Positions 1,778 through 31,094 of a DNA stretch of 32,831 nucleotides are shown one piece after another. A program made the translations under genes and the position numbers. The DNA lies in IMG/VR virus record IMGVR_UViG_3300005515_000033, positions 1 to 32,831 of that record. One strand, given 5' to 3'. The notes under the pieces are model-generated. The model saw nothing but the letters and a program-made list of their open reading frames with translations, was not told where the DNA came from and made no database searches. Origin of the DNA: a virus. Position 1 is the stretch's first letter, and each line of letters begins with the position of its first letter.

Positions 1778-2362
1778 GTGTGCAACCTCTATAGCCTGGA
1801 GACTGGCGACCTTTTCAGGACGTGGGAAAGGGTGTTGCGGTTGCCTGTCGTCTGGGACGGTAAGGCCTCGAACTTCGAGCCACGGCCTGAGATCCGGATG
1901 ACCGAGGAGGCTCCGATCGTGCGTCACGTCGGAGAACAGGCCGTTGTCTCCATGACCAAGTGGGCCTGGGCGGGCCCGCGCGGCGCCCCGGTGTTCAATT
2001 TCCGGTCCGATGGCCGCGACTTCAGCGACAGCGACCGCGTCCTAATCCCAGCCGACGCCTTCTATGAGTTCACGGACGCCCTGCCCGGCCAGAAGCGCAA
2101 GACCCGCTGGAAATTCACGATGCCCCAAAGCCCGCTGTTCTGGGTGGCTGGGATCGTGAAGAATGGGGCGTGGACTATGCTGACGACCGAGCCGGGGCCG
2201 GACGTGGCCCCCTACCACGACCGCCAGATTGTTCTCCTTGCTGCCGAGCACGGCCGAGACTGGCTGGACCTGACCCGGCCGCAGGAGGAGATGTTGCGGG
2301 CGCTGCCGGCAGGCACGCTCGCAGTCGAACGCGATTTCCCGCCGCCGGATCTGTTCGGCTAG
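1778..2362 (+). CDS. SRAP-domain protein (YedK/HMCES type), abasic-site DNA crosslinker
   Basis: This 194-residue protein fits the SRAP (SOS response-associated peptidase) fold. Family members react with abasic sites in single-stranded DNA through Cys2, forming a stable thiazolidine crosslink that shields the lesion. The expected active-site set is present. Cys2 follows the initiator Met, which also fixes the GTG start at 1778. A conserved-position Asn lies near residue 74 (F-N-F-R-S-D). Glu97 sits in F-Y-E-F and His147 in Y-H-D-R. The length is typical of short bacterial members. The gene follows a small hypothetical gene by three bases and ends convergently with the minus-strand gene at 2359, with a 4-base overlap. 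No LexA box of the alphaproteobacterial GTTC-N7-GTTC type was seen just upstream. Confidence 0.92.
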   Translation: MCNLYSLETGDLFRTWERVLRLPVVWDGKASNFEPRPEIRMTEEAPIVRHVGEQAVVSMTKWAWAGPRGAPVFNFRSDGRDFSDSDRVLIPADAFYEFTDALPGQKRKTRWKFTMPQSPLFWVAGIVKNGAWTMLTTEPGPDVAPYHDRQIVLLAAEHGRDWLDLTRPQEEMLRALPAGTLAVERDFPPPDLFG

Positions 2363-2698: not shown

Positions 2699-3109
2699 CT
2701 ACTTTGCAGGATCGGCCCAGGCGCCCCTGCCAGCGGCGCGCGCCTCCCCTTCAGCCATGGCATAGAGCCCCTTGCTGTAGCGCCGATATTCGGTGGCAAA
2801 GCCTGACCGGATGATCGCGGCATTGACATCTGGGCTGACGCTCGACCAGCACTTGCCTACGAAGCGGCCGTAGCGATCGCGCTCGACGAACCTGCAGCCC
2901 ACTCGTCCCCGGGTTAGCCGGATCAGCTCGTCACGGGCGTCATAGGCAAACGGCTCCGCCGGCGTCTGACCGCGGCGGACCTCTGGAGCGTCGACGCCGA
3001 ACAGTCGAACGCGCTCCGCACCGCAGCGGATCGTATCTCCGTCATGCACGCTCGGATCCGTACAGGCGATGATACTGGCGGCAGCGGCGGCGAAGATCAG
3101 CAGCGACAT
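2699..3109 (-). CDS. Exported SNase-type (thermonuclease family) nuclease
   Basis: This 136-residue protein has a short hydrophobic N-terminus (residues 1-15, possibly a lipobox at I-I-A-C) followed by one staphylococcal nuclease OB-fold domain. Motifs in order are H-D-G-D-T-I-R (metal-binding Asp), V-R-L-F-G-V-D-A-P-E (catalytic Arg, Asp and Glu), R-D-R-Y-G-R-F-V-G-K-C (second catalytic Arg), and the usual G-x-A-x-x-Y-R-x-Y ending before G-A-W-A-D-P. Family enzymes hydrolyse DNA and RNA with calcium. The N-terminus implies action outside the cytoplasm. The start is divergent from the small plus-strand gene at 3164. Confidence 0.88.
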   Translation of the reverse strand: MSLLIFAAAAASIIACTDPSVHDGDTIRCGAERVRLFGVDAPEVRRGQTPAEPFAYDARDELIRLTRGRVGCRFVERDRYGRFVGKCWSSVSPDVNAAIIRSGFATEYRRYSKGLYAMAEGEARAAGRGAWADPAK

Positions 3110-4075: not shown

Positions 4076-4609
4076 CTACTTGCCCAGGAAGACGGCGCGC
4101 TCGGCCTCGCGGCGGGCGACCAGGCCGGGCAATTCGCGTCCGCCGGCGAAGCGCCACATGCGGAAGGCGTCGGCCGCGCCGGCAAGGTCTCCAGCCAGGA
4201 ACCGGCGTCGAACGCTGGAGTCGGCGAAGTCCGCACCGCCTCCGACCTCGCCGACGCCGATATTGTAGGCGAGCGAGACCATGGCCCCCAGCTGTCCATC
4301 GGTCGGTGTCCTGCCGGGCAGGAGGCGAACGATCTTGTCGCAGACCTCTTGCGCCACGGCCTTGAGCAGGGCGTCGGCCTCAACGCGGGTCATGCCGCCC
4401 GGCCAGCGGGCGCGCCAAATCCGATAGGCCGTCTCGCGGTCCTTAACGGGCTTGCCGTTCTGGAACAGAGCTAGGCCCCACCCCACGGTGTAGATCCCGA
4501 TCGGATCGGCCTGGGGCTCAAGTTGCGGCGTCTTCTTGTCGCCGTCGTGCAGGCCCTCAAACCGGCGCAGCAGGTCGAGCGCGCACGAAGGCACGGTGCG
4601 GGTAGGCAT
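4076..4609 (-). CDS. Phage endolysin, GH24 (T4-type) lysozyme
   Basis: This 177-residue enzyme would cleave the glycan strands of peptidoglycan at the end of phage growth. The GH24 triad is recognisable: Glu18 in R-R-F-E-G, Asp35 and Thr41 (D-P-I-G-I-Y-T-V-G-W-G), with the usual six-residue Asp-to-Thr spacing. There is an eight-residue insertion between Glu and Asp compared with T4 lysozyme. The later helix Q-L-G-A-M-V-S-L-A-Y-N-I-G-V-G is also typical. No signal or anchor segment is present, so export would need the neighbouring holin-like proteins. AAGGA precedes the ATG at 4609. It is flanked by the membrane-protein pair upstream and the lipoprotein downstream, forming a lysis cassette. 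Confidence 0.93.
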   Translation of the reverse strand: MPTRTVPSCALDLLRRFEGLHDGDKKTPQLEPQADPIGIYTVGWGLALFQNGKPVKDRETAYRIWRARWPGGMTRVEADALLKAVAQEVCDKIVRLLPGRTPTDGQLGAMVSLAYNIGVGEVGGGADFADSSVRRRFLAGDLAGAADAFRMWRFAGGRELPGLVARREAERAVFLGK

Positions 4610-6133: not shown

Positions 6134-7468
6134 TTACGTCGCGAACAGCATCACGTTGTCGAACTTCACAATCTGAGCCGCGTCACCGGCGTTTGGAATG
6201 ACCTGGAAAACGACACTCGTCTGGGTGGCCGTGAACGTGAAGGACCGGTGGACCATGCCGGCGCCGGCGCTGTTGTAGTTGTTCGAGGCGAGCTGACCAT
6301 TGGGGGCCATCTGCTCGACGATCGCTAGGCGCGCGTTCTTCGTGCCGGTATCGAGGTCCAACTCTACCCGGTAGGTCGCGCCAATCGTAAGACCGGTCCA
6401 GGTCTTCTGCGCCTTGTCCGAGAAGTTCGAGACGTTGGTGACCTGGGCGACCGCCGACACGACGCTGAATTGCGCCGTTCCGGTAAACCCAAAGCCCTCG
6501 TTGCTGAAGGCGAAGGTGTGGTTGAAGATCGGGCTTGGACCGCCATCGCGGAAGGTGGCGCGGAAGCGCGCGGTGCAGTCGGGCTTGGAGCCGTCGCTGA
6601 TCCGGAAATTGCCGGCGGCGTGGTCCCAGTACGCGGCGTAGGCGTAGTTCTTCGTCTTGACCCACTGATACACCGCGTCGATCCACTGGGGCTTATCCCA
6701 GTTCAGCCCGAACTCGCACATCGCCACCGGCTTGCCGTGCGCGGCGCCGAAGTTCACCAGCCAAGCGAGGCCGCAGTTGGCGAGGTCGCGAGCATAGTTG
6801 AAGGCGACGGTCGGATCAGCGTCGTCGGTGTTGTTGTAGTAGAGGTCCGAGGCCACCAGATCCACGTAAGAGTCGCCTGGCCAGGCCGGCGAGAGATCGG
6901 TCGTTGCTGGATTTGGTAGTGTGATCCAGTTCGTGCACCAGATGAACCGGAAGCGGCTGGAGACGGCGCGGAACTGCCCGACCGCCTGCCGATAGGCCGC
7001 TGCGTACTGGGTCCACTTGCCGCTGTTGATCGTTTCCCACGGGTAGGTACCCGCCAGATTGAATTCGTGACCGATGCGTACGAGGATTGCTCGCCCATCG
7101 GCCGGCGCGTCAGCCAGCGCCGCGACAGCAACGTCACGGTAGTGGCTGTTGAACGTGCCGGCTGCAGCGTCGTCCAGCGTCGTGCCCGTCACGCACAGGC
7201 CCATCGTCCACACCTTGCGGCGAGCATCGCCGGTATAGTTGGAGACGATGCTGGCGATGCTGATGTCCCACGCCGACCAGTTCGAATGAGAGACGAACAC
7301 GGTTACGAAGTCGGTCACGCCCCCGAACCAAGCATCCCAGGTCGACAAACCAGCTACGCCAGGGGTGTAGGGGTGCACACCCATTTTGCCGCGAAAGTCT
7401 ATGCCACCCCCACCACCCTGGTTAGGTGTGAGCCCAATGACCCGGCGTGGACCGATGTTGAGGGCCAT
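6134..7468 (-). CDS. Tail-associated GH26-like glycoside hydrolase with C-terminal carbohydrate-binding-like domain
   Basis: This 444-residue protein has a TIM-barrel-type domain (about residues 28-285) with the marks of glycoside hydrolase family 26. It has R-I-G-H-E-F-N with proposed acid/base Glu135, P-W at 143-144, R-F-I-W-C-T-N-W, W-P-G-D-S-Y-V-D-L-V-A-S-D-L-Y-Y, and G-K-P-V-A-M-C-E-F-G with proposed nucleophile Glu252. Family members cut beta-mannans or related beta-glycans. The last 130 residues form a Thr/Asn/Ser-rich beta-sandwich-like region that resembles a carbohydrate-binding module. No signal peptide is present, which fits a virion protein. The ATG at 7468 overlaps the previous stop (TAATG). 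The longer upstream frame is out-of-frame Arg-rich sequence and was excluded. It is the last tail gene before lysis, a usual place for receptor-binding or depolymerase proteins. Confidence 0.82.
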   Translation of the reverse strand: MALNIGPRRVIGLTPNQGGGGGIDFRGKMGVHPYTPGVAGLSTWDAWFGGVTDFVTVFVSHSNWSAWDISIASIVSNYTGDARRKVWTMGLCVTGTTLDDAAAGTFNSHYRDVAVAALADAPADGRAILVRIGHEFNLAGTYPWETINSGKWTQYAAAYRQAVGQFRAVSSRFRFIWCTNWITLPNPATTDLSPAWPGDSYVDLVASDLYYNNTDDADPTVAFNYARDLANCGLAWLVNFGAAHGKPVAMCEFGLNWDKPQWIDAVYQWVKTKNYAYAAYWDHAAGNFRISDGSKPDCTARFRATFRDGGPSPIFNHTFAFSNEGFGFTGTAQFSVVSAVAQVTNVSNFSDKAQKTWTGLTIGATYRVELDLDTGTKNARLAIVEQMAPNGQLASNNYNSAGAGMVHRSFTFTATQTSVVFQVIPNAGDAAQIVKFDNVMLFAT

Positions 7469-8540: not shown

Positions 8541-9506
8541 CTAGTTCCTCTTCCAGATGGCGAGGGCTGCGCCGGCGGGCGTGATGCTGAGCGACGCCCC
8601 GCCGGTCGTAATGCTCATGATGTGGTCGAGCTGAACGACTTTCGTTCCGGCGAGAGTGAAGCACATGTGCGGTATGAAGCCTGCGCCCCAGAACTGAAGA
8701 TCTGTGACTTGCTGAGCGGAGCCGGCGACGCCCGTCAGGATGTCGCTGGAGTCCGTGACGTTGCGCAAAACTGGCCAGTTATTGCCGATGCCGCTCCCGC
8801 CAGCCGTGGCCCACGCCATGTAGTCGCCAGCAGGCAGAGTCAGTTGGTTAGACGAAAACGTCCAACTGTAACGGTTGCGATTGACCGTATTGAGCAGACG
8901 CGCCACGCGGCTGGCCGGCCCAGGATAAGACCCGACCTCGGTCGCAACGAAGTCTGCTCCGATATCCGACGTCGGGCCGGTGTCGCCCTTGTCGCCGGCG
9001 GGGCTGAACGTCACGACCACGGCGTCGCCAGCCGTAAATGGACTGGCCGCCGATCCCGCGACGATCGCGACGGGAAGGGTCCGGTAGCCGGTCGAGTTGA
9101 CGACCGCGCCGTTGACGCGGAACAGCAGCCACTTGCTCGGGTCGCCGACCTTCTGCGCCCGCAGGAAGCCTTTCAGGGCCGAGGTGCTGTCATCCATGGT
9201 ATCGACGATCGACGATGCGCCGATGCCCAGGGCGTCTAGGTCATCGAGCCGAAGGCTGGTCGAGCTATTCTGCGTCGCGTTGTTCCCGCCGACGCAGCCG
9301 CTACCCGGGTCGCCACTGGTCGAGGAAACCCAGGTATAGGCGATGTAGGCGGCGGCCGGCTGGGCCGCGGCGGCCAGCCACACCGCGTAGGCGTTGGCCT
9401 CGGTGACGAACGTCGGCAAGGCGCCCAGGAGCGCGTCGGCGCGCGTGTTGAAGTTGGTCGGATCGCTCGTGGACGGCGGCGTGGGTAGAGGCGTGATGCC
9501 AACCAT
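8541..9506 (-). CDS. Tail fibre-like protein, 321 aa
   Basis: The N-terminus (residues 1-45, T-P-L-P-T-P-P-S-T-S-D-P, N-F-N-T-R-A-D-A-L-L-G, then T-E-A-N-A-Y-A) is a block often seen at the start of phage tail fibres and tip proteins. A short collagen-like G-D-K-G-D-T-G-P stretch follows at about residues 170-180, and the C-terminal 130 residues are beta-rich (W-T-F-S-S-N-Q-L-T-L-P-A-G-D-Y, then I-S-I-like strands), consistent with a trimeric receptor-binding head. It starts three bases downstream of the previous tail gene stop. The host receptor is unknown. Confidence 0.78.
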   Translation of the reverse strand: MVGITPLPTPPSTSDPTNFNTRADALLGALPTFVTEANAYAVWLAAAAQPAAAYIAYTWVSSTSGDPGSGCVGGNNATQNSSTSLRLDDLDALGIGASSIVDTMDDSTSALKGFLRAQKVGDPSKWLLFRVNGAVVNSTGYRTLPVAIVAGSAASPFTAGDAVVVTFSPAGDKGDTGPTSDIGADFVATEVGSYPGPASRVARLLNTVNRNRYSWTFSSNQLTLPAGDYMAWATAGGSGIGNNWPVLRNVTDSSDILTGVAGSAQQVTDLQFWGAGFIPHMCFTLAGTKVVQLDHIMSITTGGASLSITPAGAALAIWKRN

Positions 9507-9509
9507 GGG

Positions 9510-10664
9510 TCAGTTTTCCTCAAGTTCGAGGGTGATGAGGGCTTCTTCCGGCTGGTCCATGTCGATCGAGAAGCGCTTGTAGACGCCCAGGATCAGGAGG
9601 GCGGGGAAGAAGCCGCTCGCCTGGTCGTCGATGCCGAACCACAGGGCGGGGACGGCGTTGAGGGCGTCGATCAACAGCAGCAGCTTCGGGACGTTGGCCT
9701 TGCTGGCGCGGATGCTCTGGGTGGTCCTCGGCACCGAGCGGCGCTGGACTAGGATCGTGTTCCCGAACTCGTCCCGTTCGATCTTGGAGAAGTTCAGGGC
9801 CTCGAACTGCGCCGAGTGCAGGGTTCGGCCAAGATAGGCGTTCTGGCCAATGACGAGGCCGCCGCAGGTCGCCGGGCCTGTCGCCCGGGAGATCGTCACG
9901 GTGATGACGGCGCTGGTCTCGGGCGGCAGGTCGAACAGGACCGCCTCGCCGTCATAGGAGAACTCGGCGGTGAAGTACTCGTACCAGCTCACCACGGGCC
10001 GGTTCAGGAGGTCGACGGTTTCGTCGTAGACCGGCGAGCCCGACACGCTCATCTGGACCCGCACCGTGTCGGCGATCAGGCCGACCAAGCCCACGCTGTC
10101 GATCCGCCGGCCGGGCGTGATCACCACCACGATAGGCGACGTTGCCGTAGTGCCGGTGTTCCGCAGCAGGTCGAACATGGCCCACTTGTTGGAGGGGCCG
10201 GCGTCGACCCACCACGTTCCGTCATCCGTCGTCGGGTCATGACCCTTGTTCGGGTTGGCCGTGGCGGTGTGCGTGCCCGACTGAGAGCCTGAGGTGTTGA
10301 TGGCCGCCCCGCCGATCGTGGCGGAGACTTTGAACGTGTCCACGGTGTCGGCGAGGACGTAGTAGATCGTCCCGGCCGTGATCCCCGTCGGCAGAGCGCC
10401 CGTGGTCGTGAACAGGATCGGCGTCCCGGCCGCGAGGCCATGGCCAGTCCAAGTCACGATGCACGGGCTGGCGATCGTCATGGTGACGACCTTCTGGGCG
10501 CCCTGCTGGCTCTCGTAGGTCCGGTGCGTGGTCGTGTTGATGACCTGGTCGCCGAGTTTGTAGACCGTGCCCGACGCCCACGTCGCCTCGCCGCTGGAGG
10601 GCTCAGAGACGGACGACGAGGTCAGTAAGGCGGCCGTCACGGGGACGGGCGGGATAACCCTCAT
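9510..10664 (-). CDS. Tail tip/baseplate protein with inserted FCCH-like domain, 384 aa
   Basis: The protein starts with S-S-S-V-S-E-P and W-A-S-G-T-V-Y-K-L-G-D-Q-V-I, a motif I recall from carbohydrate-binding-like modules of phage tail tip proteins. At about residues 60-138 comes an extra domain with G-H-G-L-A-A-G-T-P-I-L-F-T-T-T-G and Y-Y-V-L-A-D, the signature of phage proteins annotated with an E1 FCCH-like domain. The rest (N-K-W-A-M-F-D, V-Y-D-E-T-V-D-L-L, W-Y-E-Y-F, I-G-Q-N-A-Y-L-G) fits a family encoded directly downstream of tape measures in siphophages. The start overlaps the tape-measure stop by ATGA, indicating coupled translation. Confidence 0.8.
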   Translation of the reverse strand: MRVIPPVPVTAALLTSSSVSEPSSGEATWASGTVYKLGDQVINTTTHRTYESQQGAQKVVTMTIASPCIVTWTGHGLAAGTPILFTTTGALPTGITAGTIYYVLADTVDTFKVSATIGGAAINTSGSQSGTHTATANPNKGHDPTTDDGTWWVDAGPSNKWAMFDLLRNTGTTATSPIVVVITPGRRIDSVGLVGLIADTVRVQMSVSGSPVYDETVDLLNRPVVSWYEYFTAEFSYDGEAVLFDLPPETSAVITVTISRATGPATCGGLVIGQNAYLGRTLHSAQFEALNFSKIERDEFGNTILVQRRSVPRTTQSIRASKANVPKLLLLIDALNAVPALWFGIDDQASGFFPALLILGVYKRFSIDMDQPEEALITLELEEN

Positions 10665-13600
10665 GCGGCGGGCTCCGTCTGCATGGCGCGACCACCTTCC
10701 GTGACGTTGGTCAGTGTGCTGCGGATGTTGGCGACGTCGGCGGCTACGGCGCGAAGCTGGGACACCTCAATGCGGAGGGCGCGCACCTCGGCGGCCAACT
10801 CGGCGTTGCCGTTGTCGTTCGACGGCCCGCCTCGCCCGATCCACGCCGTCTCGCCATAGCTGACGTTGGCAATGGGCTGGCCGTTGAGGCTGAGGGTGTT
10901 CTGGTCGACGCCCGGGTTACCGCCGATGGTGAACGAGCCGCCGGTTGCGAAGCCAGGCAGGCCCGCCGCTTGCAAGGCGCGGATTTGGGCCAAGCCTGAG
11001 AAGTCGCCCGTGTTGCTGCCCTGGAATAGGGCCCCCATGATCAGGGCGGAAAGGCTGCTCTGGTAGGCGTCCGACTTCGCCGAGGTGACGCTGTTCAGGC
11101 TGGCCTGGCGGATCTGGGCGATGATGCGCAGGTACTCGGATTGGCTCCCGGCGCCGGACTTGGCGGCGTCGGCATAGGCCTTCCCAAGCTCGGGAATGGC
11201 GTCGTAGTTGCCCGTCGCCACCGCGGTCTTGAAGGCGCGCTCCGCCTGGGCCAAGGAGCCGCCCGTCGTGCCAAGGCCAAGCTCAGACTTCAGGCTGTCG
11301 GCGAAGTCGGTGAGCGAACTCATCGCGCCGTCCAGGGCATGCGCCGCCGTATCCGCCGCGTTGGCGAAGGCGGTCATCTGGTTGGTGTAGGCTTCCTGAG
11401 CGGCGGCGGCCTTGGTCGCTTCAGCCTCGGCCGCTTCCATCGACCGAGAGAGGCTGTCGTTGAAGGCCTTGGCCGCGGCATCCTCGGCCGCCTTGGCGGC
11501 TTCAGCTGCAGTTTTGGCCACGGCCTCTGCGGCGTCGGCCACCTTGTCGAACGCCGGCGCCACAGCCAGCAGAGCGGCATAGGTTGCCCGGCCAGCCTCG
11601 GTCGTCAGGTCTTGAGCCAGGACCAGGTCTTTGAACTGATCGCGGCTGCTTTCAGCCGTCAGGCCGTAGGCTTTCAGGTTATCGTTGACCGCCTTGATCA
11701 CCGGAGCCAGCTGCTCGGCGTCGGTCAGGAAGTTGCTGGCGAAGAACGAGGTGGACGAGGTGAACGCGTCCATGCCGCCGAACAGCTGCACCAGCTCGTC
11801 GCGCGCGGCGATGCTCTCCAGACCGACTTGGCCGAAGGTCTTGCCGATACTGGCCAGGGCGACGTCGACCACCTGATACTCGCGGGCCAGGCGCGTCAGG
11901 GTCTCGAACGCGCCCTCGCCGACCGTGGCAAGCTCCTCCAGGCCCGGCACGCCCGCGGCGGCCAGCTGATCACCGACCTTGTCGAAGGTGGCGTTCAGGA
12001 CATCGGCGATCTCGTCGGCCTTCAAGTCCTTGAGCGACAGCTTGCCCAGATCCACCACGGCCGAGCCGAGCGCGCTTTCCGCCGCCTTGGCGGCCTCAAC
12101 ACCAAACACCGCAGCCGCGGACAGGACGCCATCGCCGAGGGCCTGGATAACGCCGCTGATCTGGCCAAGGAGGTCAGGGTCGATAGAGCCCGTGACCGTG
12201 CTGGTCTTGACCTTGGTGCTGTAGCCAACGCCGAGGATCGACTTCTTCGTGGTGGTCAGCAGGTCGGCATAGGACGAGCCGGTGACGCCGTTTTTGGTGA
12301 TCTGGTCGAACGTCGAGGCGGTGAACTGCAGGCCCTGATCCAGGATCTCCGTCGTCGTCTTGGTCTTGGTGAGGGCCCCGACCAGCGCGCCGACGGCGCC
12401 GGCAACGAGGCCGATCGGGCCCAGCGCAAGGGAGCCGGCCAAGCCGCTGAGCAGGAAGCTTCCCGCGCCGGCCAGGGCCGCGCCCGTCAATCCGCCCGCC
12501 ACCAGTCCAGCGCCAAGGTTGCCCTGCGCCGTCGTCGAGCCGAGACCCAGGCCAGACGTGCTCAGCAGCCCGCCTGTGCTGACTTGGCGCGCCAGAAGCG
12601 CAGCCGCCGCGCCGGTCTTGGCGTCGATCGAGCGCAGGGCCGACAGCATGGCGCTGGAATACTCAAGGTCCGAATTCCAGTTCTTGTTCGCCTCGGCCAG
12701 GGCCGCAGCGATGGATCCGCTGGAGGTCTTGTTGTCGGACCGCAGATCCTCGACGGCCTTGGTCAAGGCTTCGATCTTGCGCTGGGCCTTTTCAGCCGAG
12801 CTCGCTCCAATAGCGCCGAGGACGCCGGTCACCGCCGAAACGGCGGCGCCGATCGGGCCGGCGACGGCCGCCGCGCTACCCAGCGCACCGCCCAGCGAAG
12901 TCCCCAGCCCACCGGCCAGGCCGGACAGCTGCTTCAGCACGCCACTGGCCGCCGAGATCGAGCCGCCGATATCCCCGTCGATCACCGCGCGCGCCGCGTT
13001 CGACAGGGCTCCCACCAGATCGGCATAGGCCGTGACGGCGTTGTCGCTCAGCTCCAGTTGGCGCAGTTCGTTGCGGTAGATTTCCTCCAAGACCGGTAGG
13101 CGGGCTTGGGCCGCATCGACCGCGTCCTGCTTGTAGCCGTTCTCGATCGTGGTCTTTTCGAGCACCTGGCGCTCAGCCGCGTATCGCACGCCCGCGATCC
13201 GTCGATCGAACTGCGCGGCTTCATAAGACGACTGCGCCAGCCCCTTGCGGCTTTGCAGCAGGTCGGCCTCGTTCTGGAAGCCTTGCTGAGCTAACGCGAG
13301 GTCGCGCTGGAAGATAGCCAGGCGGTCCTGGCGGGCCTTATCCTCGCCCTCCGCCGCCTGGGCGATGGCCAGATCGACGAGCAGGAGCTTGCCCTGGGTC
13401 AGGGTGATGTCGCCCGAGATGACGCGCTGGGCGACGGCTTCCTCTAGCGCGTCGCGGTCGTAGGCCTGGCGCTCGGCCAAGGCCTTGCTCTGGATGGCGA
13501 ACGACTTCTCCAGCGTCGGCGCGGCGGCGGCCTGGAGCTGCGCGACGCGCTGGGTATAGCCGAGCACTTCTTGGCGCTGCTGAAGGTCGCGCTGCGCGAT

Positions 13601-15640
13601 CTGGTTCGCCGTTTCAAGGTCGAGAGCCTGGCGCTTGTAGCCGGCCGCGACGCGGTAGCTGCCCAGCGCTGCATCGGCATCCGCTTGGCTAATCTGCTTG
13701 GTCCGAACTTGCCCGTCGAGCCGGACGCGCTGCGTATCCAATTCCTGGGTGATCTGGGCGCCCTTGATACGCGCCAGTTGCTCGATGTTCTTGGTCAGCG
13801 CCAGTTGGGCGGCAAGTTCTGCGTTCTGAGCCTGCTCGACGACGTTGTCGCCGCGAGCGTCGGCCCTGGTCGCCGCAGAGACCGCCGGCTGCTTCGTGAG
13901 GTGTTCGTAGCGCTTGCGGATAGCCGCCTCGATCGCCGCCGCCTGCGCAGGGCTGTCGAGTTCCTTACTGTTCGGGTTCGCCGCGCGAATATCAGCCTGC
14001 CCCTTCCGGTAGCGCTCGATTTCCTGCGTCGCGAGGCTGACGTTCCTCGCAATCTTCGACCACGAGTTCGCGTGCTCGTTGGCTGCGGCGACGCCGTCGG
14101 CCTGAACCTGGTTGGCGGTAGCTTCGGCCTGAACGCGCTTCTGCTCAGCGGCCTCAACGGCCTTCAGCGCTGCCAGCTGGGCCTGGAGGCCTTTGTTGCG
14201 GGCCTCCAACTGACGGCGCTCGTCGTCAAGGAAGCTGTTGCCCTTGCCGGTGGCCGGATTTCCTTGCAGGCGCTCATTGTTGAGCTTGATCTGGTCCTGG
14301 ATGTTCTGGATGGCGTTCGCGCGGCCTGCGGCCTCGTTCCCCCACATTTTCAGCCAGGTCCAGGCGTCCTTCACGGCGTCACCGACGCCGCGCCAGGCCT
14401 TCTCTAGATAGCCGAGGTTTTCAGGGCCAGCCTTGCCCAAACGCTGGTGGACCAGGATTGCCGCCTCAAGCTGAGCTTGGGTTGTGTCACCCTGGCGCTC
14501 CAGCAACTGAATGTGCTCGATCTGCGCCAGCCGCATGCCGCCATACGACTCCTGGAACTTCGTAAGGAAGTCTGAGGCGCCGGAACCCATCTGAGCGAAG
14601 TAGCTGACCGCCTCCGTCGAGGATTTCCCGGTCAGGCGGGAGAACATCACGACGTCCTCGCCCAAGACCTTGATGGTCTCGCCTGTGAACTTGCCGGTCT
14701 CCGTCAGGCCGAGCAGCGCCGCGCGAGCGGCGTCGACGCTGGTCTTCGTGTCGCCGGCGACTTGCCTGGAGAACTGCTCGAACTGGACAGCGGTAATGCC
14801 AGCATTGCTACCTGCGAGCGCCAGGGTGTTGGCGAGTTTCGCCGCTTCTTTATCGCCCTCGTTGAACGCCACGGCGGCGGCGGTGATCGCGCCACCGATC
14901 AGGACGATGGGACCGAGCAGAGCGATGACCGGGCCCGCAGCCTCAGCGATCCCTGCGAGGGCCGCCTTGAATGTAACTCCCCGCGTTGCTGCCTCGGCGA
15001 AGACTTCGCCGGCCTGAGCGCCTTGCTGAATTGCTACCATCCAGAGCGCTTGTCCGCTGGCCAACGACACGAACACATCGGCGCCCTGCCGGCCGAGGTT
15101 CAGAAGCTGGTAGGTCTGAAGGCGGGCAGCTTCACCGGACGCCGCGTGGGCCTTCTGCAGGTTCGCCAGCTTGCCCTGCAGGCCGACGACGGCAGCCCCG
15201 TTATCGCCTTGGATCTTGACCGCTTCGGCCATCAGCCGGTTGGTGCGCATGATCTCGGCGCCGACCGGATCGTAGGCGCGTGTGAGCGCTTCGAGTTGCT
15301 TGGCGGCGCGCGTCTGCTCTTTCGTCAGGGCGTCGGTCGCCCTGGCGTTCTGCAAGATCAGCTTCGCCGTCGCCTCCTGAGAGAGGTTGTATTGGCTCTG
15401 GGCGTTGAAGGCGTTGCCGTATACCTGGGCCAGCCCGCGCACGGAGGCCTCGGCCTTCCCGGCTGCGGTGCCGGACAAGCCTTGGGCGACGGCTTGGTCA
15501 CGGACGGCTTGCGCGGTCGCCCTGGCCTGTTCCTCAAGGGCGCGGGCGGAGGCGCGCAGATCGTCGGTCTGCTTCTTGGCCGGCTCGGCCTTGGCGACAT
15601 TGAAATCCATCGCCAGCGAGGCGAGCGTGACTTCGGTCAT
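10661..15640 (-). CDS. Tail tape measure protein, 1659 aa
   Basis: This is the longest gene of the window. The N-terminal 200 residues are helical and Ala/Gln-rich with L-N-L-G-R-Q-G-A-D-V-F-V-S-L-A-S-G-Q, a signature of lambda GpH-type tape measures. A hydrophobic segment lies near 233-259. Long coiled-coil stretches fill the centre, with more Gly/Ala-rich hydrophobic stretches around residues 930-970 and 1090-1140. The C-terminus carries G-F-A-T-G-G-S-F-T-I-G-G-N-P-G, also typical. Tape measures set tail length and are ejected with the DNA. AGGAGGTGTC directly precedes the ATG at 15640, giving a very strong start. At about 0.15 nm per residue the tail would be near 250 nm. It lies downstream of the G/GT chaperone genes, as in lambda. 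Confidence 0.96.
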   Translation of the reverse strand: MTEVTLASLAMDFNVAKAEPAKKQTDDLRASARALEEQARATAQAVRDQAVAQGLSGTAAGKAEASVRGLAQVYGNAFNAQSQYNLSQEATAKLILQNARATDALTKEQTRAAKQLEALTRAYDPVGAEIMRTNRLMAEAVKIQGDNGAAVVGLQGKLANLQKAHAASGEAARLQTYQLLNLGRQGADVFVSLASGQALWMVAIQQGAQAGEVFAEAATRGVTFKAALAGIAEAAGPVIALLGPIVLIGGAITAAAVAFNEGDKEAAKLANTLALAGSNAGITAVQFEQFSRQVAGDTKTSVDAARAALLGLTETGKFTGETIKVLGEDVVMFSRLTGKSSTEAVSYFAQMGSGASDFLTKFQESYGGMRLAQIEHIQLLERQGDTTQAQLEAAILVHQRLGKAGPENLGYLEKAWRGVGDAVKDAWTWLKMWGNEAAGRANAIQNIQDQIKLNNERLQGNPATGKGNSFLDDERRQLEARNKGLQAQLAALKAVEAAEQKRVQAEATANQVQADGVAAANEHANSWSKIARNVSLATQEIERYRKGQADIRAANPNSKELDSPAQAAAIEAAIRKRYEHLTKQPAVSAATRADARGDNVVEQAQNAELAAQLALTKNIEQLARIKGAQITQELDTQRVRLDGQVRTKQISQADADAALGSYRVAAGYKRQALDLETANQIAQRDLQQRQEVLGYTQRVAQLQAAAAPTLEKSFAIQSKALAERQAYDRDALEEAVAQRVISGDITLTQGKLLLVDLAIAQAAEGEDKARQDRLAIFQRDLALAQQGFQNEADLLQSRKGLAQSSYEAAQFDRRIAGVRYAAERQVLEKTTIENGYKQDAVDAAQARLPVLEEIYRNELRQLELSDNAVTAYADLVGALSNAARAVIDGDIGGSISAASGVLKQLSGLAGGLGTSLGGALGSAAAVAGPIGAAVSAVTGVLGAIGASSAEKAQRKIEALTKAVEDLRSDNKTSSGSIAAALAEANKNWNSDLEYSSAMLSALRSIDAKTGAAAALLARQVSTGGLLSTSGLGLGSTTAQGNLGAGLVAGGLTGAALAGAGSFLLSGLAGSLALGPIGLVAGAVGALVGALTKTKTTTEILDQGLQFTASTFDQITKNGVTGSSYADLLTTTKKSILGVGYSTKVKTSTVTGSIDPDLLGQISGVIQALGDGVLSAAAVFGVEAAKAAESALGSAVVDLGKLSLKDLKADEIADVLNATFDKVGDQLAAAGVPGLEELATVGEGAFETLTRLAREYQVVDVALASIGKTFGQVGLESIAARDELVQLFGGMDAFTSSTSFFASNFLTDAEQLAPVIKAVNDNLKAYGLTAESSRDQFKDLVLAQDLTTEAGRATYAALLAVAPAFDKVADAAEAVAKTAAEAAKAAEDAAAKAFNDSLSRSMEAAEAEATKAAAAQEAYTNQMTAFANAADTAAHALDGAMSSLTDFADSLKSELGLGTTGGSLAQAERAFKTAVATGNYDAIPELGKAYADAAKSGAGSQSEYLRIIAQIRQASLNSVTSAKSDAYQSSLSALIMGALFQGSNTGDFSGLAQIRALQAAGLPGFATGGSFTIGGNPGVDQNTLSLNGQPIANVSYGETAWIGRGGPSNDNGNAELAAEVRALRIEVSQLRAVAADVANIRSTLTNVTEGGRAMQTEPAA

Positions 15641-15876: not shown

Positions 15877-16639
15877 CTCTTCGCCGGTGCCACCGGCGTC
15901 GATAGGTGCTCAGCATCGAGCGCCATGATGGCCCTGCGCTCCCAGGGCTCTAGCCTGACGCCCTCGTCCCGTTCCCAAGCCTGGATTTCCAAGCGCGAGA
16001 TCCGCGACGGCCCGAACCCGCCGCTCTGTCGCGTTTGGCAGAGATCGGCGTACCAGCCCCAGATGTGAGCGACGAGAGGTGGAAGCGGAGGCGTGTTCGC
16101 CAGCCGCCAGACGGCCTCAGGGTCGCCCTGTCGGGCTAGGCTTTCGAGGTGGGTCCGAAGCGGCTCGCCGTCGTCTTGGCGAGCCGCCAGCTCGAACTGT
16201 TCGCGCCCGTAGGCTATTAGGCCGCGGACGAGTTCCGCAAAAAATCGGCCACCTCGCCCGAGGCTTGGGTGACCTGGGTGGCGATCGAGGCGTTGCGGCT
16301 GACCAGCCGATAGGCGTTCTCGGGCGACCACTCTTCCTTGATCCCGCGCCAACCGACGACGCGGACGGCGGTCAGCCGGTGGCCAAACTCGATGTCTTCC
16401 TCGATCGGCGTGAAGGCGGCGTCGCCCTTGACGCGCACGGCTTCGGCCCGCAGCGCCTTCTTACGGCGCTCGTTCACCAAGCGGTTCACCTCGGCCTGGA
16501 CCTTCGGCGACTCGTTGCCGAGGACCAGTAGGAAGGCGCCAGAGTTCGAGCCGTCGGGCAGGATGATTTCCATTTCGATCGGCTTGTCGGAGGCCGTGGC
16601 GGCGTCGAAAGCGTCGAGCGAGAAGGCGGCTTTGGTCAT
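15873..16639 (-). CDS. Tail assembly chaperone GT, -1 frameshift fusion, about 255 aa
   Basis: This product shares its first 134 residues with the G protein. It then continues in the -1 frame through A-E-L-V-R-G-L-I-A-Y-G-R-E-Q-F to the stop at 15873, adding 121 residues. The T part is helical with W-G-W-Y-A-D-L and W-E-R-R-A-I-M-A-L. The downstream frame has no ribosome-binding site and is Arg/Gly-rich before the shift point but protein-like after it, exactly as expected for a programmed frameshift. GT proteins bind tape measure and tube protein and guide tail assembly. Base 16238 is read twice. Position between tail tube and tape measure matches lambda G-T. Confidence 0.85.
16217..16639 (-). 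CDS. Tail assembly chaperone G, 140 aa
   Basis: This 140-residue soluble protein starts at 16639 after AAGGACATCCCC. It has I-E-M-E-I-I-L-P-D-G-S-N-S-G near residue 22, a basic helical centre (V-N-R-L-V-N-E-R-R-K-K-A-L-R) and a conserved-looking W-R-G-I-K-E-E-W-S-P-E-N-A end. Its place between the tail tube gene and the tape measure, and its frameshift relation to a longer product, identify it as the G-type chaperone. Most ribosomes should end at the TAA at 16217, and a minority make GT. Confidence 0.85.
   Translation of the reverse strand: MTKAAFSLDAFDAATASDKPIEMEIILPDGSNSGAFLLVLGNESPKVQAEVNRLVNERRKKALRAEAVRVKGDAAFTPIEEDIEFGHRLTAVRVVGWRGIKEEWSPENAYRLVSRNASIATQVTQASGEVADFLRNSSAA
16238..16244 (-). 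other. Programmed -1 frameshift slippery site T_TTT_TTG
   Basis: On the minus strand the zero frame reads GAT TTT TTG at codons 132-134 of the G gene. The heptamer T_TTT_TTG matches the X_XXY_YYZ rule for tandem -1 slippage, and the -1 frame then stays open for 121 codons to 15873. It lies 18 bases before the G stop codon. No clear downstream pseudoknot was established by eye. Confidence 0.85.
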
Positions 16640-16659
16640 GGGGATGTCCTTGAAAAGGA

Positions 16660-16680
16660 CGCCAGGGCGCTACCCTGGCG
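16660..16680 (-). terminator. Stem-loop between tail tube and G genes, possible partial terminator
   Basis: CGCCAGGG (16660-16667) and CCCTGGCG (16673-16680) form an 8-bp stem with a 5-base loop. On the minus strand it is followed by TCCTTTTC, a weak U run. A leaky terminator here would lower transcription after the abundant tail tube gene, as is common in phages. It could also be an RNA stability element. Confidence 0.55.
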
Positions 16681-16741
16681 CTGAGTTTGGGGGAGACAGA
16701 GAGGGATGCCGCGGCGAACTGCCCCCGCGGCCGGGCGTCGG

Positions 16742-27368: not shown

Positions 27369-27411
27369 GTCGCCCGGCAGACGGCGCGAAAGCTAAATGA
27401 GGATTGCGTCG

Positions 27412-28692
27412 ATGGCCGTCGTGACAACTGGCAGCGCCTACTACATCGACTTCAGCCAGCTCGATCTAACGACGCTGCTTCAGGGCACAGTGACGACCCA
27501 GAACTCAACGACCTTAGTCGTCGACTACGGAGGCGGAGACCGGGACGAGTTCTATGGCGTGGGCTTCACTTTCAACGCGTTTGGCGAACCCACCGGTGGC
27601 ACGATCACCGGGTACCGGAGCTATATTGCTGGGGGGCTGGCCGCGACCATAGAAGGTGTCTCGGCCTCCGCCGCGGAGTTCATGTCGTACGTTAAGAACG
27701 CCGACTCGGTCGGCGCCATCTTCTCGTGGCTCTCCGGCGATGATCAAATCTCGGGTGGGGCATTCGCCGACTTCATGGCCGGCGGCGCTGGCAACGATAT
27801 TATACTCGGATTTGGCGGCGACGATAAGTTGATCGGCAACGCCGGGCAGGACGTGCTGAACGGCGGCGGTGGCACCGATACGGCCATTTACGGCGCGGCT
27901 GTAGGCAGCTTTGTGATCACCAAGTCGTCGACCGGTTGGACCGTGACCGACAAAAATGGCGGCTATGGCTCCGACAGCCTGATTGATGTCGAACGGATCG
28001 AATTCACCGACAAAACAGTCAATCTCCAACTGACCAGCGCGACCGCCAGCACTTACGCGAGCAACATCCTTCGTGCGGCAGGGTCCGCCGAGCTATCTGT
28101 GCTGGTTGCAAACGGACTGAAAACCAACGCCGAAGCCCTCAGCCAAACTATCAAGGATGCCGGCGCCACGACCTCCGTCGCCATCCTCGCCTACCAGTTC
28201 TTCACCGGCAAAATTCCTGGCCAGGCCGGCATCGACTACCTGGTCTCTCCGACAGGGCCGAACGCCAACAATCTCAACAGCGCCTACTATCAGAGCTTCA
28301 ACCTGGAAAACCGCTACATCAACTTCGCGGTCAACCTGGGCAAGGTCGGCGAAGGCAAGGAGACCTTTGCAACAAAGTACGGGTCGCTCAGCCTCTTCGA
28401 CGCCACGCGCGAGGCCTACAAGACCATCTTCGGGGTGACACCGACGGACGCAAAGATCCACGCTTTGATCGATACTCGCGCTGACTACTTCGCGAGCTAT
28501 GGCGGTGATGGCGTGAATGGCCAAGGCACGAAGGCAGCGATGGTCGGCTGGCTGCTGGCCGAGGCCGTCAAAGCCGACGTGGGAATGTATGCGAAGGCGA
28601 ATGACGCCTTCCTGACTGACTTGGCAGATGGCGCGACATTCGCAGTCGACCTTGTTGGCGTGTACGGCAAGCCGGAATACGCCAACTTCTGA
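27412..28692 (+). CDS. RTX-repeat surface protein with C-terminal RsaA-like LPS-anchor domain, 426 aa
   Basis: Residues 1-105 are beta-rich. Residues 110-160 hold degenerate calcium-binding RTX repeats: G-G-A-G-N-D, G-F-G-G-D-D, G-N-A-G-Q-D, G-G-G-G-T-D. From about 210 on, the protein resembles the N-terminal domain of Caulobacter RsaA, including A-I-L-A-Y-Q-F-F-T-G-K-I-P-G, D-Y-L-V, N-L-N-S-A-Y-Y-Q-S-F, and E-N-R-Y-I-N-F-A-V-N-L. In RsaA this domain binds LPS O-antigen. RTX proteins usually leave by type I secretion. The ATG at 27412 is preferred over 27397 because GAGGA lies eight bases before it. Here the anchor is at the C-terminus instead of the N-terminus. No secretion system is nearby, and a C-terminal secretion signal could not be confirmed. 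Confidence 0.85.
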   Translation: MAVVTTGSAYYIDFSQLDLTTLLQGTVTTQNSTTLVVDYGGGDRDEFYGVGFTFNAFGEPTGGTITGYRSYIAGGLAATIEGVSASAAEFMSYVKNADSVGAIFSWLSGDDQISGGAFADFMAGGAGNDIILGFGGDDKLIGNAGQDVLNGGGGTDTAIYGAAVGSFVITKSSTGWTVTDKNGGYGSDSLIDVERIEFTDKTVNLQLTSATASTYASNILRAAGSAELSVLVANGLKTNAEALSQTIKDAGATTSVAILAYQFFTGKIPGQAGIDYLVSPTGPNANNLNSAYYQSFNLENRYINFAVNLGKVGEGKETFATKYGSLSLFDATREAYKTIFGVTPTDAKIHALIDTRADYFASYGGDGVNGQGTKAAMVGWLLAEAVKADVGMYAKANDAFLTDLADGATFAVDLVGVYGKPEYANF

Positions 28693-30014: not shown

Positions 30015-31094
30015 ATGGCAACTACAGGGGACATGCTCCGGCTGGCCCGGCAGCGAAAAGGATTCACGCAGAAGGCTGCAGCTGAACGCTTGGGCGTCGT
30101 GCAGCCGGTGCTTTCTCGGCTAGAGAACGGACTTTCCGATGCCGATGAGACGACGCTGGAGCGGGCCGCTCGAGCGTACGATGTGCCGCGAGCGTTCTTC
30201 GATATTCGTGACCCCGTCTATGGACCGCCGGTAAGTGTCCACCCGATGGCGCGGGCCAAGGCGGACGTAAGCGCGCGCGATCTCGACATGGTCACCGCCG
30301 AGCTAAACATTCGCGCAATGCACCTGCGGCGCTTCCTGGATGCTGTCGATTTCGAGCCGAGCGCTTCGATCCCGAGCCTGGATGTCGAGCACTATGGGTC
30401 TGCGGCGCAGATTGCCTCCCTTGTGCGATCGCATTGGGGCCTGGTGCGCGGGCCGGTAAAGAATCTGACGAGCCTGGTCGAGCGAGCGGGCGTAGTGATT
30501 GGTCTTTCCGATTTTGGCGGCGCTTCCATCAGCGGCATGACGTTCCGCATCCCTGGCCAGCCGCCGCTTGTGCTTCTGAACCAGTCGCACCCGGCCGACC
30601 GTTTGCGTTTTACCCTGGCACATGAGCTGGGCCATCTTGTTATGCACCGCTATCCCACCCCAGACATGGAGGCCGAGGCGGATCAGTTCGCGTCCGCGCT
30701 ACTCATGCCAGAAGGCGAGATGCGCGAAGCTTTCCAAGGCCGGAAGATCACGTTGCAGTTGCTCGCGGCGATGAAGCCGGAGTGGAAAGTTTCGATCCAA
30801 TCGCTCCTGATGTGCGCAAAGTCGCTGGGCCTGGTCGACGCTAATCAGAACCGATACCTGTGGCAGCAGATCAGCAGCCGCGGCTGGCGCCTGCGCGAAC
30901 CGCCAGAGCTTGATTTCCCGCATGAACAACCGACCGTGCTGCCATCAATGATCCGCAGCCATATCCGGCATCTGGGGTACACGCTCGCCGACCTGGCGCG
31001 CCTCGTGCCACTCCACGAACACGACTTCACCAAGCTCTATGGACCTCTTGAAGGCGAGGCTCCGCAGCGACCTCGGCTCCGCCTGGTGACGTAA
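30015..31094 (+). CDS. XRE-type HTH regulator fused to ImmA/IrrE zinc metallopeptidase
   Basis: The 359-residue protein has an XRE helix-turn-helix (residues 6-60, with Q-K-A-A-A-E-R-L-G-V and S-R-L-E-N-G) and an ImmA/IrrE-type (DUF955) metallopeptidase. In the latter, H-E-L-G-H (203-207) and a downstream Glu near 221 (E-A-E-A-D-Q-F-A) form the zinc site. ImmA-type enzymes cut repressors to switch on mobile elements or stress genes. Here both parts are in one chain, so self- or partner-regulated repression is likely. It is coupled to the 203-residue gene upstream and followed by a perfect terminator. It could be a toxin-antitoxin or element-control module. Confidence 0.92.
   Translation: MATTGDMLRLARQRKGFTQKAAAERLGVVQPVLSRLENGLSDADETTLERAARAYDVPRAFFDIRDPVYGPPVSVHPMARAKADVSARDLDMVTAELNIRAMHLRRFLDAVDFEPSASIPSLDVEHYGSAAQIASLVRSHWGLVRGPVKNLTSLVERAGVVIGLSDFGGASISGMTFRIPGQPPLVLLNQSHPADRLRFTLAHELGHLVMHRYPTPDMEAEADQFASALLMPEGEMREAFQGRKITLQLLAAMKPEWKVSIQSLLMCAKSLGLVDANQNRYLWQQISSRGWRLREPPELDFPHEQPTVLPSMIRSHIRHLGYTLADLARLVPLHEHDFTKLYGPLEGEAPQRPRLRLVT

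Follow-up and report, generated by a model that had tools for sequence, protein, structure and literature searches.

A GH26-family glycoside hydrolase encoded at the end of a phage's tail genes is probably a host-glycan depolymerase

Virion-borne enzymes that cut host polysaccharide are known from tail-spike depolymerases such as KP34gp57 of a Klebsiella phage, which are large, trimeric and mostly built on a beta-helix (PMC10653864). The glycoside hydrolase described here resembles them in its proposed role but has only 444 aa and the TIM barrel typical of clan GH-A, and the solved enzyme that it most resembles is the GH26 lichenase CtLic26 of Clostridium thermocellum (2bv9, 2bvd, 2cit), a domain from an endoglucanase with which this cellulolytic bacterium attacks plant glucans. 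Family GH26 covers several beta-glycans and includes the beta-mannanases CjMan26A (1j9y) and CfMan26A (2bvt), which are secreted plant-mannan enzymes. Studies of viromes from mangrove and tundra have classed GH26 genes on viral contigs as auxiliary metabolic genes (PMC6460857, PMC10127799). An endomannanase of permafrost soil viruses, likewise a phage-encoded beta-hexanase of clan GH-A but of family GH5, was assayed and interpreted as a soil-carbon gene (PMC6786970). Our search, which covered mainly the open literature, found no description of a phage depolymerase from family GH26; the open papers found class viral GH26 only as auxiliary metabolic genes of the carbon cycle. Here, we analysed a window of 32,831 nt from IMG/VR virus record IMGVR_UViG_3300005515_000033, and what is new is the reading of a viral GH26 by fold, catalytic conservation and gene context. 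The most likely role of the enzyme is that of a new variant of phage depolymerase. We consider it quite probable that it is a catalytically competent, retaining beta-glycosidase that depolymerises a host glycan at the start of infection, probably while carried on the particle.

The gene occupies positions 6134–7468 on the minus strand, with its ATG at 7468 and a stop codon ending at 6134. Membership of the protein in GH26 is real and well supported, and the assignment made in the earlier note is thereby confirmed. The HMM search proposed there gave a match of Pfam Glyco_hydro_26 (PF02156) to residues 126–258 (E=1.7e-5) that clears the curated cut-off of 20.2 bits with a score of 24.8, and phmmer with the single sequence matched GH26 mannanases in the PDB at an E-value of about 0.002. 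A 31-row profile, built from relatives in viral contigs and bacteria, aligned to nearly the whole barrel of CtLic26 (2bv9) with E=2.9e-35, and GH26 mannanases and xylanases ranked after it in this search of solved structures. In the AlphaFold2 model, residues 26–310 (6539–7393, minus strand) form the (beta/alpha)8 catalytic barrel, mostly with pLDDT above 90 and with its eight strands in the order 28–32, 54–58, 84–89, 128–132, 173–180, 204–211, 248–255 and 277–281. VIA-align superposed 258 residues on CtLic26 (2bvd) with a Z of 26.7 at 2.5 A and 22% identity, a distance at which specificity is not transferable. GH26 structures top both the Foldseek and the VIA-align lists; the mannanases, which have larger loops, score lower than CtLic26 (Z about 21–23), and the first row from outside the family is a GH5 mannosidase (Z 19.8). 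A library of viral models yielded distant TIM barrels only, some of them annotated as GH5.

The catalytic residues are in place. Glu135 (codon at 7064–7066, minus strand) belongs to the motif RIGHEFN at residues 131–137 and lies just past strand 4, and Glu252 (codon at 6713–6715, minus strand) belongs to CEFG at residues 251–254 and lies on strand 7; the profile alignment pairs them with Glu109 and Glu222 of CtLic26, which we take to be the acid/base and the nucleophile, respectively. His134, directly before the acid/base as in CtLic26, and Tyr210 are intact, and the GH26 beta-mannanases use the same catalytic machinery. The block WPGDSYVDLV (residues 196–205; 6854–6883, minus strand) is nearly invariant in the family, a regularity that is partly circular since the WPGD motif served as a search pattern. 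All three motifs had been picked out in the earlier note, and both the TIM barrel and the placement of the two glutamates on which it staked its proposal are found in the model. Judging from sequence and predicted structure, the enzyme is complete and probably active.

Outside the barrel the protein is less well defined. Residues 311–444 (6137–6538, minus strand) form a beta-rich C-terminal domain in a low-confidence part of the AlphaFold2 model (block pLDDT about 26–73), without a match in Pfam or by PDB sequence search, and may be carbohydrate-binding. The beta-sandwich-like binding region described in the earlier note therefore stands as regards its beta strands, which are poorly modelled, and a beta-sandwich with a binding function is plausible. 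Residues 1–25 (7394–7468, minus strand; pLDDT about 30) comprise a disordered peptide, possibly for attachment, and a Gly-rich linker. A home-made Kyte-Doolittle scan (not SignalP) found no signal-like hydrophobic N-terminus, in agreement with the earlier note: the best stretch scored 0.2, against 2.15–2.69 in five bacterial relatives, though this crude scan also picks out 24 of the 98 viral ORFs, many of which have an extended N-terminal part.

Single-sequence searches with the GH26 protein found no close relative in phages, viral contigs or genomes and only three weak matches among plasmids; neither a tblastn match in 50,697 records of cultured phages nor a PHROG family was obtained. Relatives surfaced only through the DNA patterns WPGDxYVD (13 stretches of viral contigs) and YPGDxYVD (107 stretches) and through alignment-based scans. 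A GH26-like domain is encoded at 112 of the 129 viral loci collected, or about 98 after removal of duplicates, and 9 of 10 relatives tested individually passed or nearly reached the Pfam cut-off. A GH26-like barrel is thus unusual, as the earlier note had it, among cultured phages but not among environmental ones, in which about 100 viral contigs carry a relative. The closest (L108/L157) is 39% identical across barrel and C-terminal domain, belongs to a different phage type and has its GH26 gene next to the portal gene; the C-terminal domain by itself is 34% identical to that of L108, which shares the TPxxGGGG linker and has a longer N-terminal part. Glutamate occupies the acid/base position in 96 of 98 viral relatives and the nucleophile position in 84 of the 86 with a residue there, and both are kept in 82 of the 85 sequences in which both columns are present. 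Since these sequences are very divergent, catalysis appears to be under selection, which argues for the viral relatives being active enzymes. The glutamate counts, unlike the invariance of the WPGD motif, are not circular. The His before the acid/base is replaced by Trp in about half of the viral members. A quick tree with weak deep support places the window protein in a group with nine further viral sequences (support 80) and scatters the bacterial ones; it gives no direction of transfer.

The gene context in the window is that of late structural genes. The minus strand encodes, in order, the small and large terminase, portal, major head protein, tail terminator, tail tube and tape measure protein (10661–15640; Pfam TMP_2 and PHROGs), followed by a tail-tip or hub-like protein (9510–10664; phrog_6278, E=3.5e-61), a tail fibre-like protein (8541–9506; phrog_24210), a 135-aa gene, P0002 (7468–7992) and GH26. 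Two small membrane proteins, a lysozyme (4076–4609, minus strand; Pfam Phage_lysozyme, E=3.1e-23) and a lipoprotein lie 3′ of it. The GH26 gene is therefore found among structural and host-recognition genes, as would be expected of a virion-associated depolymerase, and its ATG shares one base with the stop codon of P0002 (TAATG). P0002, a protein of 174 aa, is a jelly-roll in its AlphaFold2 model, with weak fold matches (Z 6.8 at best, short of the level that can be relied on) that mix carbohydrate-binding modules, a fibre tip and phage capsid cement proteins. The earlier note's placement of GH26 at the end of the tail genes is correct as gene order; its description as the terminal tail protein we can only infer, because gene order is no proof of a location in the virion and P0002 weakly resembles capsid cement proteins.

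Placement in other phages varies around the same theme. In siphovirus contig L073 the order is much like that of the window: tape measure, phrog_6278 protein, another protein and GH26. The second gene downstream of GH26 there (4–1092), judged by eye, is acyltransferase-like, as in O-antigen-modifying prophages. Elsewhere, a GH26 domain ends a 1662-aa protein preceded by the tape measure and one small gene (L023), the GH26 gene lies near T7-like tail-tube genes (L016), close to terminase (L050 and L085), or between portal and head genes (L158). The nearest-neighbour proteins of GH26 in 98 contigs match 127 PHROG families, and the 25 of these that were listed include tail-fibre, tail, hyaluronidase, virion-structural, portal, head-decoration and terminase families. 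The GH26 relatives hence appear to associate with late structural genes and not with tail genes alone. This breadth bears on the foremost alternative, which we consider unlikely, namely that P0002 is a trimeric, cement-like jelly-roll and that a head-displayed GH26 binds or trims environmental or host-surface glycans. It would explain why P0002 weakly matches the cement proteins of phages GP4, Pam1 and KHP40 (Z 6.2–6.5), why a P0002 homologue comes after a head-protein-like gene in contig L164 and why several GH26 relatives adjoin portal or terminase genes. These Z-scores lie below the trustworthy level, the same list holds carbohydrate-binding modules and a fibre tip, and GH26 closes the tail block both in the window and in L073.

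Homologues of P0002 occur in Caulobacter phage Seuss (44% identical) and in ten viral contigs, nine of them with downstream sequence, and there a different gene family follows, overlapping by one or four bases. In contigs L160–L168 the follower is a family of 268–282 aa, in most of them with a protein of about 1300 aa next. These contigs are podovirus-like, and the trio of P0002 homologue, 268-aa family and roughly 1300-aa protein is conserved among them. In Seuss the follower is Seuss48, the second half of which aligns weakly with the 268–282-aa family. By eye, Seuss48 and the 268-aa family had been taken as lectin-like and DMCA_024, the protein at the equivalent position in Caulobacter phage DMCA, as SGNH-esterase-like; both labels were dropped for lack of a significant Pfam or PDB match. 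In contig L170 and phage DMCA, which are nearest to the window by tape measure and tail tip, the profile that does find GH26 in five bacterial genomes gave no match. Because P0002 leads into other families elsewhere and the nearest phages by tail tip are without GH26, the slot seems to be exchangeable, as expected of host-range modules, and the GH26 gene is best seen as one putative cargo of a coupled, exchangeable cassette.

Bacterial relatives add a clue to the type of glycan. Such a GH26-like domain was found in only 7 of 385 alphaproteobacterial genomes. The five genomic relatives examined (L132–L136), from three Bradyrhizobium species, another Hyphomicrobiales bacterium and a Frankiaceae bacterium, are about 30–33% identical to the window protein over most of the barrel and keep both glutamates; they differ from it in having signal-like N-termini (5 of 5 by the hydrophobicity scan) and Trp for His before the acid/base. 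In the three loci tested, the neighbours are polysaccharide deacetylase, a flippase-type polysaccharide synthesis protein, Wzz, WecG, O-antigen ligase, glycosyltransferase and acyltransferase. Since gene clusters for exopolysaccharide are where its best bacterial relatives occur, this GH26 group can be tied to bacterial exopolysaccharide, and this setting is the strongest indirect clue to the substrate. The role of the bacterial hydrolase itself in exopolysaccharide synthesis or release looks unstudied.

The same setting bears on the interpretation given to viral GH26 in mangrove and tundra soil viruses (PMC6460857, PMC10127799), that of an auxiliary metabolic gene, in this case a phage mannanase or lichenase that helps the host or its community to degrade plant or soil polysaccharide. 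The activity of the viral GH5 endomannanase on plant mannans (PMC6786970) speaks for it. We regard it as improbable here, slightly more so than display on the head: the secretion signal of a secreted auxiliary hydrolase was not seen in the hydrophobicity scan, the gene stands between the tail block and the lysis genes and is coupled to a late gene, relatives occur as fusions with large proteins of the tail region, and exopolysaccharide clusters are the setting of the best bacterial relatives. There is less chance still, about one that we would call slight, that the enzyme is freed at cell lysis and helps progeny to diffuse by clearing away host polysaccharide. GH26 lies directly upstream of the lysis genes and shows no signal peptide, and in Seuss P0002 and its follower come directly after lysis genes, but the coupling to P0002 and the recurrent place among structural genes fit a part of the virion better. 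Enzyme folds can be reused by phage receptor-binding proteins, and the activity of the window protein is predicted from sequence and model only, yet an inactive scaffold that serves solely as a receptor-binding lectin is very improbable, given that both catalytic glutamates, His134 and Tyr210 are intact and that the Glu pair recurs in 82 of 85 viral relatives.

The host is likely to be a Caulobacter-like bacterium because of the tail matches to Caulobacter phage DMCA (tail tube 67%, hub 59% and fibre N-terminus 77% identical), the P0002 match in Seuss and a gene with an RsaA domain in the record. The RsaA N-terminal domain is the LPS-binding part of the Caulobacter S-layer. The gene concerned (27397–28692, plus strand) encodes a 431-aa protein with RTX repeats and this domain at its C-terminus (Pfam E=1e-79; PDB S-layer protein 6t72, E=2e-22), has no match in the phage collection or the related phages tested, and could be either a provirus host flank or a cargo gene able to bind host O-antigen. 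As to the substrate, the earlier note had suggested a mannan-like glycan. This is not borne out by similarity, in that the closest solved enzyme by both profile and fold is the beta-1,3-1,4-glucanase CtLic26 and not a characterised mannanase; beta-mannanase activity is possible. Mixed-linkage beta-glucan is the type of polymer cut by lichenase. It is made by Sinorhizobium meliloti and Rhizobium etli (PMC10374906, PMC9495663), and the Caulobacter capsule, which shields from phage, contains glucose, galactose, galacturonic acid, mannose and fucose (PMC4241560, PMC5749776). A beta-linked hexose polymer from the coat of the host, in manno or gluco configuration, is the probable substrate.

For a depolymerase acting at the start of infection, the following course can be envisaged. 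The GH26 protein would be carried on the particle via P0002 and/or its short N-terminal peptide, its C-terminal beta domain would bind the host glycan, the barrel would cut internal beta-linkages of an exopolysaccharide, capsule or O-polysaccharide, and cleavage of the coat would let the tail reach its receptor. We favour this role because the protein is GH26 by sequence, profile and fold with the Glu pair kept, overlaps P0002 after the tail genes and has the same placement in L073, because of the fusion after the tape measure in L023 and the exchangeable slot, and because bacterial relatives occur in exopolysaccharide clusters and the Caulobacter capsule has glucose and mannose and protects against phage. 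Counting against it are the absence of a recognisable trimeric tail-fibre anchor domain, the viral relatives that adjoin portal, terminase or head genes instead of tail genes, and the resemblance of P0002 to capsid cement proteins as much as to anything. There is an about even chance that GH26 barrels are widespread, unrecognised host-glycan depolymerases of phages, related to the hydrolases of exopolysaccharide clusters, swapped as cassettes from one phage type to another in a host-recognition slot and misread in viromes as auxiliary genes of the carbon cycle. If so, clan GH-A retaining enzymes, which are mechanistically well understood and for which covalent probes exist, would join phage entry, and the GH26 "auxiliary metabolic genes" of soil viromes would come to signify attack on the exopolysaccharide of bacteria in place of the degradation of plant carbon. 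This reading also points to enzymes that can be tested on the surface glycans of rhizobia and Caulobacter.

Several further features of the record were noted. The structural block is flanked by a SRAP peptidase gene (1778–2362, plus strand), a staphylococcal-nuclease-like gene (2699–3109, minus strand) and a phage repressor-type regulator with HTH and M78 peptidase domains (30015–31094, plus strand). An intergenic stretch at 16637–16735, which contains an inverted repeat, is 87% identical to two sites in DMCA, one of them at 6–102 of the DMCA record, and is perhaps a terminator common to these phages. Moreover, a 4.9-kb viral contig (L169) matches the window with 100% identity across the tail tube and into the first part of the tape measure and, on this sequence match, is a second record of the same phage.
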